A DNA stretch of 39,838 nt, taken from the NCBI RefSeq assembly GCF_000934845.1, contig NZ_JXIQ01000092.1, positions 1-39,838 of the forward strand, given 5' to 3'. A program made the translations under genes and the position numbers. Source of the stretch: Mesobacillus subterraneus (GTDB lineage Bacteria > Bacillota > Bacilli > Bacillales > Cytobacillaceae). This document shows positions 7,332 through 38,323 of this stretch, one piece after another. Below the pieces are notes generated by a model, which was not told the DNA's origin, did no database searches, and saw only the letters and a program-made list of their open reading frames with translations. The stretch's first letter is position 1; each line of letters begins with the position of its first letter.

Positions 7332-7913
7332 TTATTGATTCGATCTTACCATCCTTGACGGAGCGGAGCTAATAACAAGAATGATCATAATGGCGCTTAA
7401 GATCATACTTGGAAGCATATAGGTTCCATTATAGATGAGTGAATAAAGCCATGTTGGCTGTCCTTCTGGTGCCCAAACTCCGAAAAAGACCCAGCCGGAA
7501 AAAAAGTGAGCGATAAAGCGAAGTGCGCTTCCCACGAAGGTACCTGCGATGATCCAGCCAATCCACTTTTTTTTATCTTCATTTTTGATATTCGCTTGGA
7601 CTTGTTTGGCAAATAGACCGGCAAATCCTAAAACAGTAAAGGCAATCAAATAATCGATGATTCCCTGAACAGGATGGAAAATTTGCGAAAAGCCTAGGAT
7701 GAATTGCAATAGCCCCAACAGGAGACCAGTGATTGCCCCTCCCTTAATTCCCCAGCGAAACGCCATCAAAAATACCGGCACCATTGCGATGGAAACCGAA
7801 CCTCCCTGCGGCCAAATTCTCGAAAATAAAAAACCGGAGAATAGATCCAGCAAGTAAGCCATTGCCGAAAATACCGCAATCTCCACTAAAAATAGAGTCT
7901 GTTCTTGTTTCAT
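7332..7913 (-). CDS. thiT: thiamine transporter ThiT (ECF S component)
   Basis: ThiT is the substrate-binding membrane subunit that captures thiamine and works with the shared EcfA/A'/T energising module. The 193-residue protein has six hydrophobic helices. It shows the family's conserved features: MAYLLDLF near the N terminus, GGSVSIAMVP, and the late segment FFSGWVFFGVWAPEG followed by YNGTYMLPS. A consensus TPP riboswitch directly upstream confirms the thiamine assignment. The gene is monocistronic and ends at a strong terminator. The energising subunits are not in this window. The start ATG at 7913 follows a GGAGGAGGAA sequence. Confidence 0.95.
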   Translation of the reverse strand: MKQEQTLFLVEIAVFSAMAYLLDLFSGFLFSRIWPQGGSVSIAMVPVFLMAFRWGIKGGAITGLLLGLLQFILGFSQIFHPVQGIIDYLIAFTVLGFAGLFAKQVQANIKNEDKKKWIGWIIAGTFVGSALRFIAHFFSGWVFFGVWAPEGQPTWLYSLIYNGTYMLPSMILSAIMIILVISSAPSRMVRSNQ

Positions 7914-7980: not shown

Positions 7981-8120
7981 AAAGCAATCAGGGATCGATA
8001 TAGGCTCCCAAGATTGCTTTCCTATCGCATCCACATTCCTTCGCTAGCATTACCTAACAGGTTCAAAGGGTAAGAACTCGGGCGCTCACTCTCAGCTACA
8101 CATGGCAGCTCCCCTTGTGG
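7981..8120 (-). ncRNA. TPP riboswitch with terminator expression platform (thiT leader)
   Basis: Read on the minus strand, the aptamer (8120-8031) is closed by CCACA/TGTGG. It carries the THI-box landmarks GGGGAGCT, GCTGAGAGTGAGC, ACCCTTTGAACCTG, and GTAATGCTAGCGAAGGAATG. Downstream, AAAGCAATC and GATTGCTTT (8020-7981) form an intrinsic terminator with a T-run. The layout predicts premature termination of thiT when TPP is bound. Confidence 0.97.
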
Positions 8121-8240
8121 TTATTATTTAATTTCTACGTTATGAATATACTACTTCTTCCATTCTATCACAAGTCAAAAGGGAACCTCCATGTCGATCA
8201 ACCTAGAAAAATCTCCATCAAAGTAGCAAAAATATCGGTC

Positions 8241-17404: not shown

Positions 17405-17880
17405 TCATAACTCCAGCACTCTTCGTCGAAGACAAAGAAAGGTATCGATATTGTGAACTGCCGCGTTCTTAAAAGTGTAAAAGCGTTTCCTAATCATGTA
17501 TAACAAGGGTTTGTGGATTTATGAAAATTTTGTGGATATAGCAAGAAAAGCGCAAGCGCCTTTATGATTGTCGCAACTACCTAGTGGCAAGCACCTTTCT
17601 ACTAGCCGTTTCCTTCTCCTGCTTCAGACAGAACTTGTTCAGAACGGAGATCATATGCTAGGTGTATAGGCATTTTTAGCACCAATACAGCTCTTTGATG
17701 ACCTGTTTTCTCGATTTTAGTTCATCTAATAGAGGAGCCCGCCTGCTCTTTGGTCAGCTTCATATGTTGCAGGATTAGTGGCATATTCCGGCGAATTTCA
17801 CCATTTTTCCGGTTGCATCCACGAAATTCCTCCGTTCAGGAATTCTACAATTTTTTGGTCACCAATACAGCTTATTAGTA
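17405..17880. other. gene-poor intergenic stretch with repeat fragments
   Basis: I see no gene in about 600 bp here. GAAAAGCGCAAGCGCC (17545-17560) resembles a short palindromic element that I recall as widely dispersed in Bacillaceae. Two diverged copies of the hairpin repeat seen at 1-94 start near 17680 and 17861. A weak catabolite-response-like sequence (GTAAAAGCGTTTCC, near 17476) lies upstream of the radical SAM gene and is not convincing. Frequent stop codons exclude a long frame. Confidence 0.5.
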
Positions 17881-17937
17881 ACCTTAAATCATAATCAACT
17901 AACTTACTTACTTACTTTTAAAAGGAGTTCATAATAA

Positions 17938-18003
17938 ATGAAAGAGATTATCTCATCTAATGTAATAATTCGAAAGAGATTTTCCATGAAGAAAATGCTT
18001 AAA
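17938..18003 (+). pseudogene. truncated 5' copy of the HPr-like gene
   Basis: The first 27 nt are identical to the HPr-like gene at 216, and similarity continues to codon 21 (MKEIISSNV then SMKKML). It then stops abruptly at the A-run of the sugE terminator. The upstream leader (TCAACTAAC and AAAGGAGTT or AAGGAGTTC) is also shared. The HPr domain itself is absent, so this is a remnant of a duplication or recombination. The frame continues to 18249 only as antisense of sugE. Confidence 0.75.
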
Positions 18004-18006
18004 AAA

Positions 18007-18034
18007 AAAGAGATTGCACCTCGGCAATCTCTTT
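18007..18034 (-). terminator. intrinsic terminator after sugE
   Basis: The arms AAAGAGATTGC and GCAATCTCTTT are followed by a long T-run on the minus strand, about 65 bp after the sugE stop. Confidence 0.85.
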
Positions 18035-18098: not shown

Positions 18099-18422
18099 TC
18101 AATTGCTTCCGGAAGTTGCCTTCAGACCAATGATCCCAATTAAAATGAAAGCTACAAACAACAATCTCAGAAGACTGCGCGGCTCTCCGAACAACACGAT
18201 TCCAAGCAGCACGGCACCGGCTGCACCTATCCCCGTCCAGATGGCATAAGCAGTACCAATCGGCAGTGTTTTAACGGCCATGGATAAAAAATAAAAGCTT
18301 ATTCCCATCCCAGCGATCGTGATTAGCGATGGATAAAGCTTGGTAAATCCATCCGTATACTTCAGGCCAATCGCCCATACAACTTCAAATAAGCCAGCGA
18401 TCACCAAAAAAATCCACGCCAT
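18099..18422 (-). CDS. sugE: guanidinium exporter Gdx/SugE (SMR family)
   Basis: This 107-residue small multidrug resistance family protein has four membrane helices. Glu13 in the first helix ([17 protein letters not shown]) is the essential proton/substrate residue, and this segment is typical of the Gdx (SugE) subtype rather than Emr[16 protein letters not shown] in helix 3 is also characteristic. The guanidine-I riboswitch directly upstream supports guanidinium as the substrate. Gdx proteins work as dual-topology homodimers, so a single gene is sufficient. The start ATG at 18422 follows GGGAGG. It is a monocistronic unit with a terminator beyond. Confidence 0.95.
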
Positions 18423-18483: not shown

Positions 18484-18597
18484 CCCGGGAGATATCCATC
18501 GATATCTCCCGGGTTTTTTTCCCTCCGTGTACACAGGTGTTCCTGTGTGTCCTCTCTCGGACCAGTCCAGCCATGCAGCTGCGGAACCCTAGAGGAC
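18484..18597 (-). ncRNA. guanidine-I (ykkC) riboswitch and terminator
   Basis: On the minus strand, 18597-18521 carries the ykkC landmarks TCTAGGGTTCCGC, GGACTGGTCCGAGAGAGG, and ACACGGAGGG. It runs directly into a perfect 13-bp terminator stem (CCCGGGAGATATC with GATATCTCCCGGG, 18513-18484) and a T-run. Guanidine binding would prevent termination and switch on sugE. Confidence 0.96.
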
Positions 18598-18631
18598 TTT
18601 TCATATTTGGAATAGTATCATAACGGAAGTC

Positions 18632-32989: not shown

Positions 32990-33048
32990 TTGTAAAACAA
33001 AATAAAAACGAATATTATATTTATTGTGTTAAAAAAACGTTCGTATTT
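32990..33048 (+). promoter_or_regulatory. promoter and PurBox-like pair before the purine permease
   Basis: TTGTAA (32990-32995), 17 nt, TATTAT (33013-33018) forms a sigma-A promoter. AAAAACGAATATT (33004-33016) and, inverted, AACGTTCGTATTT (33036-33048) each match the PurBox core (CGAA) with two mismatches and flank a 19-nt gap. PurR control is inferred. Confidence 0.5.
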
Positions 33049-33058
33049 TGGAGGAGTT

Positions 33059-34360
33059 ATGTTTAAATTAAAAGAGAACAACACAACCATTAAAACTGAA
33101 TTGATGGCTGGGTTTACAACCTTCTTCACAATGGTTTATATCGTAGTCGTCAATCCCATCATCCTAGCTGATGCTGGTGTTCCTTTTGAACAGGTTTTCA
33201 CCGCGACCATCATTGCTGCTGTCATCGGTACATTGTGGATGGCTTTATTTGCTAATTATCCGATTGCGATCGCTCCGGGCATGGGTTTGAATGCTTACTT
33301 CGCCTATTCCGTTGTCGGCAACCACCAAAATATTACGTATGAGACGGCTTTCGCCGCTGTATTTATCGCTGGTTTACTGTTTATCATCCTCTCGCTGACA
33401 TCGTTCCGCGAGAAATTAATCGAAGCAATCCCTGTCAATCTAAAACATGGAATTACTGCTGGAATCGGCCTGTTCATTGCTTTTATTGGCTTGCGCCTGA
33501 CGGGGATCATCACCGCCCATCCAACAAATCTGGTTGCACTCGGGGATCTACATTCACCATCCGCACTGCTTGCTTTGGGTGGACTTGCCATTACGCTTAT
33601 CTTAATGGTGCTCAACATCAAAGGGGCTCTTTTCCTTGGCATGGTTGCCACAGGCATGATTGCCTTTTTCACTGGACAGCTGAATTTCAATGACGGTTTC
33701 ATGGCGATGCCTTCTCTGCCTGAAGGGATGATTGTCCTAAATCCTTGGACAGCATTGATGGATGTAATCCAAAATAGCTTGTATGCAGTTGTCTTTTCTT
33801 TTATCTTGGTAACTATTTTCGATACGACCGGTACAATGATCGGTGTTGCTCATCAAGCAGGACTGATGAAGGGAAATTCATTACCGCGAGCTCGGCAAGC
33901 ACTTCTTTCTGACTCCATTGCCACTGCTTTTGGGGCCATGTTCGGAACTAGCCCGACGACTGCTTACATTGAATCGTCTGCTGGTGTAGCAGCAGGCGGA
34001 CGTACTGGACTTACTTCACTGACAGTTGCAGGCTTGTTCATTTTCGCTGCTTTCTTCGGACCGCTTGTAAGTGCAGTTTCTGGATTGTCCGCTATTACTG
34101 CACCGGCATTGATCATTGTCGGAAGCCTGATGATGGGAAGCATCTCTAACATCACATGGGATGAACTTGATGAAGCCTTCCCTGCATTTTTAATCATCCT
34201 TAGCATGCCGCTAATATCGAGCATTGCTACAGGAATCGCACTTGGCTTCATTTCCTATCCTCTTCTAAAAGTCGTCAGAGGAAAATGGCGTGACGTCCAC
34301 CCGCTGCTTTATGTTTTCGCAGTCCTGTTCTTTTACCAGCTTGCATTCTTGCCTCATTAA
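33059..34360 (+). CDS. NCS2-family purine permease (PbuG/PbuO-like)
   Basis: The 433-residue protein is an AzgA-type nucleobase permease importing hypoxanthine and guanine (or adenine). Signatures are AGFTTFFTMVYIVVVNP at the N terminus, NYPIAIAPGMGLNAYFAY, GTMIGVAHQAG, and TSPTTAYIESSAGVAAGGRTGL in the substrate region. It has about 12-14 hydrophobic segments. The ATG at 33059 follows GGAGGA; an earlier ATG at 33026 overlaps the promoter and PurBox-like region. It is monocistronic with a terminator. The putative PurBoxes fit B. subtilis purine permeases, which belong to the PurR regulon; which of pbuG/pbuO is orthologous is unclear. Confidence 0.9.
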   Translation: MFKLKENNTTIKTELMAGFTTFFTMVYIVVVNPIILADAGVPFEQVFTATIIAAVIGTLWMALFANYPIAIAPGMGLNAYFAYSVVGNHQNITYETAFAAVFIAGLLFIILSLTSFREKLIEAIPVNLKHGITAGIGLFIAFIGLRLTGIITAHPTNLVALGDLHSPSALLALGGLAITLILMVLNIKGALFLGMVATGMIAFFTGQLNFNDGFMAMPSLPEGMIVLNPWTALMDVIQNSLYAVVFSFILVTIFDTTGTMIGVAHQAGLMKGNSLPRARQALLSDSIATAFGAMFGTSPTTAYIESSAGVAAGGRTGLTSLTVAGLFIFAAFFGPLVSAVSGLSAITAPALIIVGSLMMGSISNITWDELDEAFPAFLIILSMPLISSIATGIALGFISYPLLKVVRGKWRDVHPLLYVFAVLFFYQLAFLPH

Positions 34361-34480: not shown

Positions 34481-34762
34481 AAAAGTCCGATAAATTTTAA
34501 GAAAAACAAGTCCTCCCCACTTTAGTTTTTAAAATGAGTGGGAAATTGGACTTAACTTCCCACTCGTAAAGAAATAAGGGCGTAATATGGGATTGTGATA
34601 AAACTCCTTAATCTGGTAGTTGTTTTTTATAGCGCCCATCCTGATTGTTTAGCAAGTTTACTCTTTTAAGCCTGTTTGAACGAGCGAATTGAAAATCACA
34701 ACTGCCAAATTTTATGTTTCGTATATTTTTTACTAAAAAACTGCCATAAGGGTGCAATTCAA

Positions 34763-35041
34763 GCGGAAAGATACCCTTATGCAAGCAATTTCACCTCTAT
34801 AAGAGCATCTCTCATGCGGAAAGATACCCTTATGCAGGCAATTTCACCTCTATAAGGGCATCTTTCATGCGGAAAGATACCCTTATGCGAGCATTTTCAC
34901 CTCTATAAGGGCATCTCTCATGCTGAAAGATACCCTTATGCGAGCATTTTCACCTCTATAAGAGCATCTCTCATGCGGAATGATACCCTTATGCAGGCAT
35001 TTCCACCTCCATAAGGGCATCTTTCATGCGGAAAGATACCC
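34763..35041. repeat. 53-bp tandem repeat array, five units, each a hairpin
   Basis: Units begin with GCGGAAAGATACCC (or close variants) at 34763, 34816, 34869, 34922 and 34975, with an exact 53-bp period, and a partial unit at 35028-35041. In each unit GATACCCTTAT pairs with ATAAGGG(C)ATC about 20 nt later, giving an 11-bp stem with one mismatch. A half copy (ATAAGGGTGCAATT) precedes the array. The surrounding 1 kb (34481-35390) has no recognisable gene. It is not a CRISPR array because the entire unit is repeated without variable spacers. Confidence 0.9.
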
Positions 35042-35390: not shown

Positions 35391-36779
35391 TTACGCTTCC
35401 GCTTCGATTTTTTGATTCATGTCTGTATAAATGGTCGGATCGATTTCCTTAGTGATTCTGCTTGTCAGGATTCCTGAAGTCATCGAGCCGCTGACATTTA
35501 CTGCTGTGCGTCCCATATCAATCAATGGTTCAATTGAAATCAGCAAGCCGGCAAGGCCCACTGGGAGGTCCAATGCTGACAGCACGAGTAAGGCTGCAAA
35601 GGTAGCCCCGCCTCCAACTCCAGCAACTCCAAAGGAACTGATCGCAACGATCGCAATCACGGTTGCGATAAAGGATGGTGATAAAGGGTCAATCCCAACA
35701 GTTGGCGCAATCATAACTGCGAGCATTGCCGGATAAATACCAGCGCAGCCGTTCTGTCCAATTGATAATCCGAAGGAGCCTGCAAAGTTTGCGATTCCTT
35801 CTGGTACCCCCAGTGAGCGCTGCGTTTTGATATTTAAAGGCAGTGCTCCTGCACTCGTTCTTGAAGTGAATGCAAACGCTAGAACAGGAAATGCTTTTTT
35901 GATGTAAGTGACCGGATTCAATCCAGAAATAGTCAATAGAAGCAAGTGGATGATGAACATGATCGTCAGTGCCACATAAGAAGCAACTACAAATTTGCCC
36001 AAGTTAATAATTGCAGCAAAATCGCTTAATGCCACCGTTTTTGTCATGATGGCAAGAACGCCATACGGAGTCAGTCGCAGGATCAGCGTGACTACTCTCA
36101 TGATGACTGCATAAAAAGCATCTACGATTTTAGCAAAAAGCTCTGCCTGTTCAGGAGACTTCCTCCTGACTCCAAGAAATGCGATTCCCAGGAAAGCCGC
36201 GAATATCACGACAGATATTGTAGATGTCGGCCTTGCACCCGTGAAGTCCAGAAATGGATTGGCCGGCAACAGATCGAGAATTTGCTGCGGCATTGTGCGT
36301 CCTTCGATTCCCCCATAGGTTTCCTCAAGTTTCATAGTCTGTGCTTGCTCTGCCTCCCCTTGATTGATTTGAACTGCTTCAAGGTCGAATCCTACTGCAG
36401 TCACTATCCCGACCATTGCTGCGACAGCTGTTGTACCAACCAGCAAGCCGAGGATCAGGGTACTGATTTTACCGATATTATTCGTGAGCTTCAGTTTTGT
36501 AAATGCAGCAAGAATGGAAATGAATACAAGCGGCATGACTACCATTTGCAGGAATTTAACATAACCGCTTCCCACGATCGAGAACCATTCCGCACTCTTC
36601 GTGAGGACTTCAGAACCCACTCCATAAATGAATTGCAATGCAAAACCAAACACAATCCCAATTCCCAGTGCAATGAAAACTCGTTTAGAAAAAGATACAT
36701 GCTTTTTTTGCATGTAAAAAAGAACAGCGAGAATGCCCAGCATGATCAAAATATTTACTATCACTAATCCAGTGGTCAC
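35391..36779 (-). CDS. tcyP: L-cystine symporter TcyP
   Basis: The 462-residue protein is a sodium/dicarboxylate-fold importer specialised for L-cystine, as B. subtilis TcyP (YhcL, about 463 residues by recall). Features are FLQMVVMPLVFISILAAF, RTSAGALPLNIKTQRSLGVPEGIANFAGSFG with the binding-site hairpin, and DMGRTAVNVSG in helix 8. The GTG start at 36779 lies 8 nt after AAGGGGG; a TTG ten codons upstream is unsupported. A clear sigma-A promoter with a palindrome lies upstream. The glutaredoxin-like gene with in-frame TGA lies about 165 bp further upstream on the same strand, so two thiol-metabolism genes are neighbours. Confidence 0.92.
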   Translation of the reverse strand: MTTGLVIVNILIMLGILAVLFYMQKKHVSFSKRVFIALGIGIVFGFALQFIYGVGSEVLTKSAEWFSIVGSGYVKFLQMVVMPLVFISILAAFTKLKLTNNIGKISTLILGLLVGTTAVAAMVGIVTAVGFDLEAVQINQGEAEQAQTMKLEETYGGIEGRTMPQQILDLLPANPFLDFTGARPTSTISVVIFAAFLGIAFLGVRRKSPEQAELFAKIVDAFYAVIMRVVTLILRLTPYGVLAIMTKTVALSDFAAIINLGKFVVASYVALTIMFIIHLLLLTISGLNPVTYIKKAFPVLAFAFTSRTSAGALPLNIKTQRSLGVPEGIANFAGSFGLSIGQNGCAGIYPAMLAVMIAPTVGIDPLSPSFIATVIAIVAISSFGVAGVGGGATFAALLVLSALDLPVGLAGLLISIEPLIDMGRTAVNVSGSMTSGILTSRITKEIDPTIYTDMNQKIEAEA

Positions 36780-36811
36780 TGCTTTTTCCCCCTTCGTTTT
36801 CTTTCTCAAAT

Positions 36812-36840: not shown

Positions 36841-36906
36841 CTCGGAATTAAAATCATTGCCCTACCATGACAGATTACTATATGTTAATTTGGTTCCATA
36901 CCAACT

Positions 36907-36936
36907 AAAAAGCCATCCCATTTGGGATGGCTTTTT
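36907..36936 (-). terminator. intrinsic terminator after the glutaredoxin-like gene
   Basis: The perfect 14-bp arms AAAAAGCCATCCCA and TGGGATGGCTTTTT surround TT, just after the stop codon. It separates this gene from tcyP. Confidence 0.92.
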
Positions 36937-36944
36937 AGTTTTAG

Positions 36945-37220
36945 TTATAAGCTACCTACAAGTTTTTCAATTTCACTCCGGTTATTTTCAAATCCGATCA
37001 ATACCTTTTTATTTTTTAAGAACAGCATCTTTGTATTTGTAAAAATGAAGGCTGGAACGATTATGGTTCCGGTCAATTCCTTCAGCTGTTTCTCCACTTC
37101 CGGTTCATCCTGTACATTGATTTCTTTATAAGGAACATGCTTTTGCGAAAGGAACTCCTTCGCCTCCTGGCAATCTGTTCACATCGGCCTAGTGTATAAT
37201 GTTAATGTGCTTTTTGACAT
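36945..37220 (-). CDS. glutaredoxin-like protein with in-frame TGA at the catalytic cysteine (selenoprotein candidate)
   Basis: Reading through one TGA gives a complete 91-residue glutaredoxin. It starts MSKSTLTLYTRPM, then U14 (TGA at 37181-37179), then TDCQEAKEFLSQKHVPYKEI, and ends with IIVPAFIF (cis-Pro56) and a C-terminal helix. Relatives I recall read YTRPMCxDC, so TGA stands exactly at the first redox Cys, leaving U-x-x-C with Cys17. AGGAGGGAAGG precedes the ATG, the stop is TAA and a perfect terminator follows, with no other stop or frameshift. A hairpin 15 nt after the TGA fits a bacterial SECIS. Readthrough with selenocysteine, or a nonsense mutation, or a sequencing error could each explain it. 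Sel genes are not in the window. Gene prediction without readthrough would miss it. Confidence 0.7.
37145..37163 (-). promoter_or_regulatory. SECIS-like hairpin downstream of the in-frame TGA
   Basis: In the mRNA, GCGAAGG and CCTTTCGC form a 7-bp stem with one bulged U and the apical loop AGUU. The loop begins 22 nt after the TGA and has G in its second position. Those values fall within the bacterial SECIS model I recall (loop about 16-37 nt after UGA, with a G in the first two loop bases). The hairpin is also within coding sequence, so chance is possible. Confidence 0.45.
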
Positions 37221-37291
37221 TGCCTTCCCTCCTAAAACCAAGCTTTAATGGTAGTATATATGCAAAAGTGCCGATAATCCAATATCCCGAT

Positions 37292-38323
37292 TTAAATTCT
37301 GAAGTTGAGCTTAATCACTTTCGCTTTTCTTAACGTTTCATAAATAATCACAACGATCGGACCGATAAAGACCCCTGCTATTCCTAATAGTTTGAGACCG
37401 ATATACATGCTGATCAATGAGGCAAGCGGCGAGATCCCCAAGCTGGAAGAATAAATTTTTGGCTCAATCACTCTTCGGACTACCGTAATGACGAGAAACA
37501 GAATGAGCAACCCGATCCCGAGAAAATGGTTGTTCTGGAGAATTGCAATGACCGCCCAGGGAACAAGTACCGAACCTGTCCCGAGAATTGGCAGAATGTC
37601 CACTGCAACAATCAGCAAGGACAGAAGACCGGTATACTTCACCCCTAATATGCTCATACCAGCCATTGACATGACGAATGTGACAAAACTCAAGATGACT
37701 TGAGCTTTTAAAAATCCAATTCCTGCCTTGTTTAATTGGCTGCCGACAAAAAAGACTTTTTGACGGGTTTCTTCTTTCAAATGGGCCTCAAGCTTCAATT
37801 TTAATTTGGGAAGTTCAAGACTGAACAAGAATAACGCAATTAAATACACAAGAAACTCAATCATGAATCCCGGTATAGCAGAGAGCAGGTTGATAATCCC
37901 TGCTACAACTTGCTGAAGGAAGGAATCGAGGGCATTAATGTTTTTTTCGATTGTTTGCTCAATTTGAGCAATTACTTCCAACGGGAAATTTTTCGAGTAG
38001 AATTCCCATTTATGCATCAATGGCAGAATCCCAGTTTTGTACATGTCCTTTACAAAGGTTGGCGTCTTTTCCGATAATGACACTGCCTGGTGAGCAATAA
38101 TCGAGACAAGATTATAGCCAATTACTGCCAGAAGAAGCACAAATCCAAGGAACACAGCGGTCACGGCATGAAGACGCTGAAATGAAAATCTTTTCATGAT
38201 CCATTGAACCGCACCTTCGAGCATGACTGCTGTCAGGAAGGCAAAAATGAGCGGCAGGCTGTAAGGAATAAGAAAGAAGATGACTGCTGTAGCCACACCA
38301 ATCGTTAACCATTTTTTCCACAT
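37292..38323 (-). CDS. AI-2E/PerM family membrane protein, YtvI-like
   Basis: The 343-residue protein has eight predicted membrane segments. The PerM/AI-2E exporter pattern includes an extracellular helical insert (about residues 80-140) and the conserved late motifs VDILPILGTGSVLVPWAVIAI and EPKIYSSSLGISPLASL. Such motifs occur in the YtvI subgroup associated with sporulation, by recall; transport substrate is unknown. GGGAG lies 8 nt before the ATG. It is a monocistronic unit upstream of the glutaredoxin-like gene on the same strand, about 70 bp before its start. Confidence 0.85.
   Translation of the reverse strand: MWKKWLTIGVATAVIFFLIPYSLPLIFAFLTAVMLEGAVQWIMKRFSFQRLHAVTAVFLGFVLLLAVIGYNLVSIIAHQAVSLSEKTPTFVKDMYKTGILPLMHKWEFYSKNFPLEVIAQIEQTIEKNINALDSFLQQVVAGIINLLSAIPGFMIEFLVYLIALFLFSLELPKLKLKLEAHLKEETRQKVFFVGSQLNKAGIGFLKAQVILSFVTFVMSMAGMSILGVKYTGLLSLLIVAVDILPILGTGSVLVPWAVIAILQNNHFLGIGLLILFLVITVVRRVIEPKIYSSSLGISPLASLISMYIGLKLLGIAGVFIGPIVVIIYETLRKAKVIKLNFRI

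Follow-up and report, generated by a model that had tools for sequence, protein, structure and literature searches.

The window, a 39,838-nt stretch of Mesobacillus subterraneus DNA, carries on its minus strand a predicted glutaredoxin gene between genes for an SDF-family transporter and the sporulation membrane protein YtvI (Table 1). Read from 37220 to 36945, this strand gives MSKSTLTLYTRPM-TGA-TDCQEAKEF...VGSL-TAA, i.e., 92 codons counting the final TAA, and the frame has a single in-frame TGA (37181-37179) and is otherwise free of defects. With C substituted at the TGA, the protein matched the PF00462 Glutaredoxin profile at 52.1 bits (gathering cut-off, 22.9). The redox motif is T-R-P-M-U-T-D-C, in which U14-T-D-C17 is of the UxxC type, and a cis-Pro candidate, assigned by motif only, lies in IIVPAF, where it presumably has the role of cis-Pro in the glutaredoxin fold. 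The original prediction had described a full glutaredoxin frame with TGA at the first catalytic Cys as its sole defect, together with a ribosome binding site and a terminator. Re-reading of the frame, the PF00462 match, the AGGAGG 7 nt before the ATG, and the 17-pair stem-loop bore out this description. A promoter scan returned one weak site, which was below the shuffle count. Across the genus, a relative of the SDF transporter gene lies at most 1.5 kb from the glutaredoxin gene in 18 of 19 loci (the window's own included), the exception being G014.

Table 1 Features of the glutaredoxin locus and formate dehydrogenase alpha-type frames of the same genome.
Feature	Coordinates	Strand	Basis or remark
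Glutaredoxin-family selenoprotein gene (predicted), 91 residues with U14, then TAA	36945..37220	-	Frame, PF00462, and orthologues
In-frame TGA, predicted selenocysteine, first catalytic position of U-x-D-C, codon 14	37179..37181	-	Homologue alignment
Ribosome binding site AGGAGG, ATG 7 nt further on	37228..37233	-	Read off the sequence
Predicted bacterial SECIS hairpin, 7-bp stem GCGAAGG/CUUUCGC, loop AGUUC	37145..37163	-	nt 19-37 from the U of UGA
Terminator-like stem-loop, 17 pairs, 3' of the gene	36903..36940	- (scan listing, +)	
Downstream neighbour, SDF-family (sodium:dicarboxylate) transporter	35391..36809	-	PF00375, 319.1 bits
Upstream neighbour, sporulation membrane protein YtvI (ytvI)	37292..38323	-	TIGR02872, 321.6 bits (cut-off, 198.15)
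Formate dehydrogenase alpha-type TGA frames	G000:C52:250-2271; C4:4211-6220; C23:35597-36349		

All components of a selenocysteine (Sec) system were found in the genome assembly (3.90 Mb, 208 contigs): tRNA-Sec (58 bits; cut-off, 47; anticodon tca by ARAGORN), selB (368.2 bits; cut-off, 242.25), selA (556 bits; cut-off, 267.9), and selD (394.3 bits; cut-off, 125). selD itself has an in-frame TGA and adjoins selA on one contig. Of 14 control genomes, five exceeded the cut-off for tRNA-Sec, two that for selB, one that for selA, and two that for selD; since it was passed in 5/14, the tRNA-Sec model is the least specific of these and is not wholly specific. Three formate dehydrogenase alpha-type frames each carry one TGA in an R-x-U-H setting; two of them exceeded the family cut-off of 666.25 (786.2 and 784.4 bits), and the third matched piecewise (best, 192.5 bits). 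The genome thus holds at least six TGA-containing candidates, namely two glutaredoxins, SelD, and the three formate dehydrogenase frames. The absence of selA, selB, and selC, which the original prediction had named, together with relatives having only TGC/TGT, as a finding that would speak against a selenoprotein, was not borne out. Its remark that Sec use is uncommon in Bacillaceae did not hold either, as selA was over the cut-off in 141 of 201 genomes, including this one. Because selA is so widespread in the group, Sec in a glutaredoxin is less surprising.

An orthologue was found in 18 of 20 congeneric genomes (74-84% identity), and TGA stands at codon 14 in 18/18; none was found in the congeners G010 (66% complete) and G015 (99% complete). 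A public record titled Chryseobacterium sp. ISL-80 contains an orthologue at 84% identity; the title of this record is probably wrong. We compared 41 homologous loci, defined as matches with E of ca. 1e-13 or better; the weaker matches, which were set aside, comprised other glutaredoxins, Spx-like proteins, and an incomplete match in G120. The same alignment column holds TGA in 29 loci and TGC or TGT in 12 loci (11 genomes), and the TGA homologues outside the genus come from 10 genomes of other genera. A TAA inside the G195 homologue lies near the C-terminus and not at the Cys codon. The relatives had been expected to carry Cys (RPMCxDC); instead, the nearest relatives have TGA, and Cys, in motifs of the RPTCSDC type, occurs only in more distant homologues. 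The possibility that relatives carry only Cys codons therefore fell away with the TGA kept in 18/18 congeneric orthologues.

In 19 sequences of the genus, dN/dS was 0.074 before the TGA (codons -10 to -1) and 0.102 after it (+1 to +76), values that are rough given a dS above 1 (Nei-Gojobori method, our own script). They indicate that the stretches on either side of the TGA are under purifying selection and evolve as one protein.

A hairpin is predicted right behind the UGA (Table 1), and for bacterial SECIS elements there is a usual rule on the distance from the UGA to the loop. Its five-base loop is AGUUC in the window and mostly AGUUU across the TGA sequences; G108, a TGA sequence in which the loop G is absent, was counted against the hairpin. 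In 27 distinct TGA sequences, 97.4% of the cells were paired, compared with at most 71.4% in slid controls, and none of 500 shuffles reached as high a value. Compensatory changes were seen across genera, two pairs being altered on both sides in 5 cells (0/500 shuffles), while the number of doubly changed pairs (two) was matched by 41/500 shuffles. An eight-pair form of the hairpin gave the same picture, and RNAalifold recovered the same helix. All 7 pairs are present in 25 of 29 TGA sequences, and the remaining four have 5 or 6. In contrast, the 12 Cys sequences were 52.4% paired (best slid control, 53.6%); nine of them have at most 4 pairs, and the other three have 5, 5, and 6 (G156, 6/7). 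The covariation score of the Cys sequences was reached by 20/500 shuffles and is thus above most, which we counted against the hairpin, as we did the folding of the window's 48 nt singly (z -1.00; 29/200 shuffles as good). Synonymous differences were found in 0.105 of pairs in the seven hairpin codons versus 0.38 elsewhere (permutation p 0.0016; 18 sequences, without G020, which has the same gene as G011). The quietest seven-codon window begins three codons before the hairpin codons, and the quiet stretch spans ca. +3 to +11. In its available portion, PMC1088965 describes the bacterial SECIS as a stem-loop right behind the UGA whose small apical loop includes a guanosine, and the predicted hairpin fits this description.

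The distribution of TGA was compared with that of the Sec genes. selA was over the cut-off in 28/29 TGA genomes versus 5/11 Cys genomes (Fisher p 0.0007) and, outside the genus, in 9/10 versus 5/11 (p 0.063), a difference that is not significant and was counted against the association; these p values are a guide only, the genomes being related. The absence of selA in G178 and G195 was taken from the fact that neither is among the matching genomes (13 genomes without a match). Outside the genus, selB was found in 9/10 TGA genomes and 5/11 Cys genomes (26 genomes searched, E at most 1e-60). tRNA-Sec was over the cut-off in 27/29 TGA genomes, the exceptions being G119 and G152. Several cases were counted against a strict coupling. 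G152, a TGA carrier, has selA and selB with tRNA-Sec below the cut-off (best, 43.4 bits). G004, another carrier (87% complete, 6% contamination), has in-frame TGAs in its selA (2) and selB (1) matches. G015 has kept tRNA-Sec and selB without the glutaredoxin orthologue, with selA in two frames. In this single-contig genome, selA consists of two overlapping frames (G015:C1:1845480-1846866), and a second TGA glutaredoxin, described below, is retained; the split may be due to a frameshift or a sequencing error.

In G119, a TGA glutaredoxin (G119:C10:89095-89358) adjoins a copper-type ATPase gene, and none of selA, selB, and tRNA-Sec was over the cut-off in this genome, which was counted against the Sec reading. 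The G119 ATPase shows 78% identity to that of G036 and 73-74% to those of G093 and G108, compared with 68-70% to the best matches in its own genus (12 other genomes searched). Because the ATPase is nearer to those of Sec-using genomes of another genus and a Replication-relaxation protein is encoded near the glutaredoxin, horizontal transfer is favoured, and the TGA gene of G119 is likely a transferred copy that is now unreadable. It is also possible that the contig is a contaminant, as the assembly has 5% contamination. Conversely, G111 carries a Cys version (G111:C20:88478-88744) together with selA, selB, and tRNA-Sec. It is the sister of the TGA-carrying G081 (support, 98/90) in an unrooted tree of 93 columns, from which G156 (motif GCDES) was left out and in which the deeper order is weak. 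G111 and G081 share 16 letters of the hairpin stretch (columns 19-34), although these letters also encode shared residues. G111 is probably a recent Sec-to-Cys reversal with relict hairpin letters, a direction that is presumed, as the tree is unrooted. According to the available portion of PMC1794560, such reversals are few and mostly concern formate dehydrogenase and SelD.

With the Sec machinery present in the genome and TGA retained by the orthologues, the selenoprotein reading of the original prediction gained support, and we are highly confident, judging from sequence comparison, that the gene encodes a genuine selenoprotein glutaredoxin, in which we infer that Sec is inserted at the UGA. 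The mRNA hairpin behind the UGA would be bound by SelB with GTP and Sec-tRNA-Sec, the latter made by SelA using selenophosphate from SelD, and the SelB complex would decode the UGA as selenocysteine to give T-R-P-M-U-T-D-C on a glutaredoxin fold. Sec would attack as the nucleophile, and the Cys three positions further along would serve as the resolving residue, in a thiol/disulfide or deglutathionylation reaction. The physiological role may be thiol-redox protection under copper stress, a role suggested by the linkage of homologues to copper-type ATPase genes that is described below.

A pseudogene, or a recent nonsense mutation in the codon of the catalytic Cys, could be argued from the single base that separates TGA from TGC or TGT and from the Cys of distant homologues. 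However, all 19 orthologues of the genus, counting that of the window, share the codon with 10 genomes from other genera, and the downstream part evolves with a dN/dS of about 0.1 in the genus; we consider this alternative exceedingly improbable. A base-call or assembly error at 37179-37181 might be suspected in a draft of 208 contigs, but the probability of such an error is vanishingly small, as 18 other assemblies from the genus have an identical TGA and five of these (G009, G011, G016, G018, and G019) consist of a single contig. Both had been offered as alternatives in the original prediction, and neither fits the codon's recurrence in these assemblies.

A conserved UGA could instead be decoded as Trp or Cys, by suppression or under a reassigned code and not by the Sec system, and sequence cannot distinguish between the products of readthrough. 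Yet in G002 and G009 this glutaredoxin gene itself ends with UGA, so that the codon has not been reassigned wholesale; moreover, the in-frame UGA stands where homologues have the catalytic Cys, it is followed by a conserved hairpin, and the genome has the Sec genes. Decoding as Trp or Cys is, on these grounds, extremely unlikely. We rejected a pseudogene, a base-call error, and wholesale UGA reassignment on the orthologue, selection, and gene-end evidence. UGA-Sec codons compete with termination, and the UGA might normally close a 13-residue leader, with full-length protein made only when selenium is ample, which would make the gene mainly a selenium-responsive switch. Such regulatory truncation is set against the residues before the UGA, which are conserved within the fold (TRPM/TRPT; dN/dS, 0.074), and we regard it as very unlikely.

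Outside the genus, a match to the copper-type P-ATPase of G119 lies within ca. 5 kb on the same strand at 14 of 20 loci (19 genomes; set without G156), five of the 14 matches showing only ca. 50-52% identity; once G119 itself is counted, a copper-type ATPase is near 15 of 21 loci. None was found near the loci of G195, G152, G137, G181, G052, and G036, where the G181 stretch stops at the contig end. No such ATPase is encoded on three plasmid stretches of Cytobacillus that carry TGA homologues, and a heavy-metal ATPase and a multicopper oxidase are encoded near the TGA homologue on a Mesobacillus foraminis plasmid. In M. subterraneus, the glutaredoxin gene does not adjoin a copper-type ATPase gene, and the ATPase matches are on other contigs. 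With only a few such genes to be expected in a genome of 4-5 Mb, the linkage would seem far more frequent than chance allows, and it suggests a redox function under copper or thiol stress. It is quite conceivable, if somewhat short of probable, that an undescribed Sec/Cys-interchanging glutaredoxin subfamily of Bacillales was born in copper-efflux loci, with Sec being advantageous where copper attacks thiols, and was spread by plasmids. One or more Sec-competent genomes would then have returned to Cys, keeping the hairpin as a fossil, and one or more Sec-less genomes would have received a UGA copy that is dead; in the Mesobacillus group, the gene would have become fixed apart from the copper locus, next to a transporter gene. 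Pairs of Sec and Cys homologues at copper loci, together with the probable recent reversal, would offer a natural test of the benefit of Sec in a glutaredoxin.

Sec-glutaredoxins are an established family, and the window gene is a missed further case and not a new kind. A 2011 paper reportedly dealt with a selenoprotein glutaredoxin. In their available portions, PMC13188914 and PMC9312934 place Sec-glutaredoxin (PF00462, UxxC) in tables, before the section headed predicted, PMC1088965 gives ten Sec-glutaredoxin sequences from the Sargasso Sea, and PMC1794560 has a glutaredoxin row of 3, with Geobacter sulfurreducens, Alkaliphilus metalliredigenes, and Moorella thermoacetica, and lists three selenoproteins in three families for Bacillales in 2006. 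In the open-access literature searched, PMC1794560 was the only paper found on a selenoprotein glutaredoxin in Bacillales, and none was found on selenocysteine in Mesobacillus; the Bacillales subfamily and its copper linkage may be undescribed.

The window gene shares with known Sec-containing glutaredoxins the family, Sec at the first catalytic position, and the retained resolving Cys. It differs in having U-x-D-C and in occurring in spore-forming Bacillaceae, and none of the NCBIfam models compared with the protein exceeded its own cut-off. The UXX-star glutaredoxin-like (seleno)proteins (NF041212, NF041211, and NF047338) are likewise small and contain Sec, but the window gene has the second Cys of the motif, and its match is weak (best, 47.6 bits with NF041212; cut-off, 66), so that membership was rejected. 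A homologue on a Staphylococcus epidermidis plasmid (H10; RPTCSDC) lies beside an annotated metal-sensing repressor, a copper ATPase, and copZ; unlike the window gene, it has Cys and no such hairpin in its predicted fold. Among the TGA-bearing plasmid homologues H1, H2, H4, and H6, one is without a listed gene in a plasmid gene table that is incomplete by its own description, and for the other three the annotation covers only the part behind the TGA. Annotation overlooks such TGA glutaredoxin genes.

The second TGA glutaredoxin, MNDITVYTTNT-U-PYC..., likewise has this codon in place of its first catalytic Cys; it is encoded at G000:C101:90224-90454 (minus strand) and has a Cys paralogue on C165. 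It is YruB-like (85.8 bits; cut-off, 88.55) and belongs to another subfamily, and its own predicted hairpin lies further from the UGA than that of the window gene. A search of 61 genomes found its TGA in this genome, in 19 of 20 congeners, and in G123, which belongs to another family; G010 has only the Cys paralogue. The sequence behind the UGA is nearly identical across the 21 genomes, and a hairpin of at least 7 pairs around nt 29-45 is predicted in 19 of them. For this genome and G123, a 54-nt fold favours another structure, while the 48-nt fold of this genome's own sequence gives the hairpin.

Elsewhere in the window, the interval separating the ORF at 33026-34360 from the SDF transporter ORF contains a tandem array (34759-35041) in which a 53-nt unit is repeated 5.3 times (91% matches). 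A dispersed repeat pair (102 nt, 81%) is present at 194-295 and 17916-18017, and each copy has 52-nt units close by (1-104 and 17681-17732). Two riboswitches were detected on the minus strand: a TPP riboswitch (8019-8125, 69.9 bits) before the ORF at 7332-7913, and a Guanidine-I riboswitch (18504-18603, 92.1 bits) before a 107-aa ORF (18099-18422), which we take to be of the small multidrug-resistance type.
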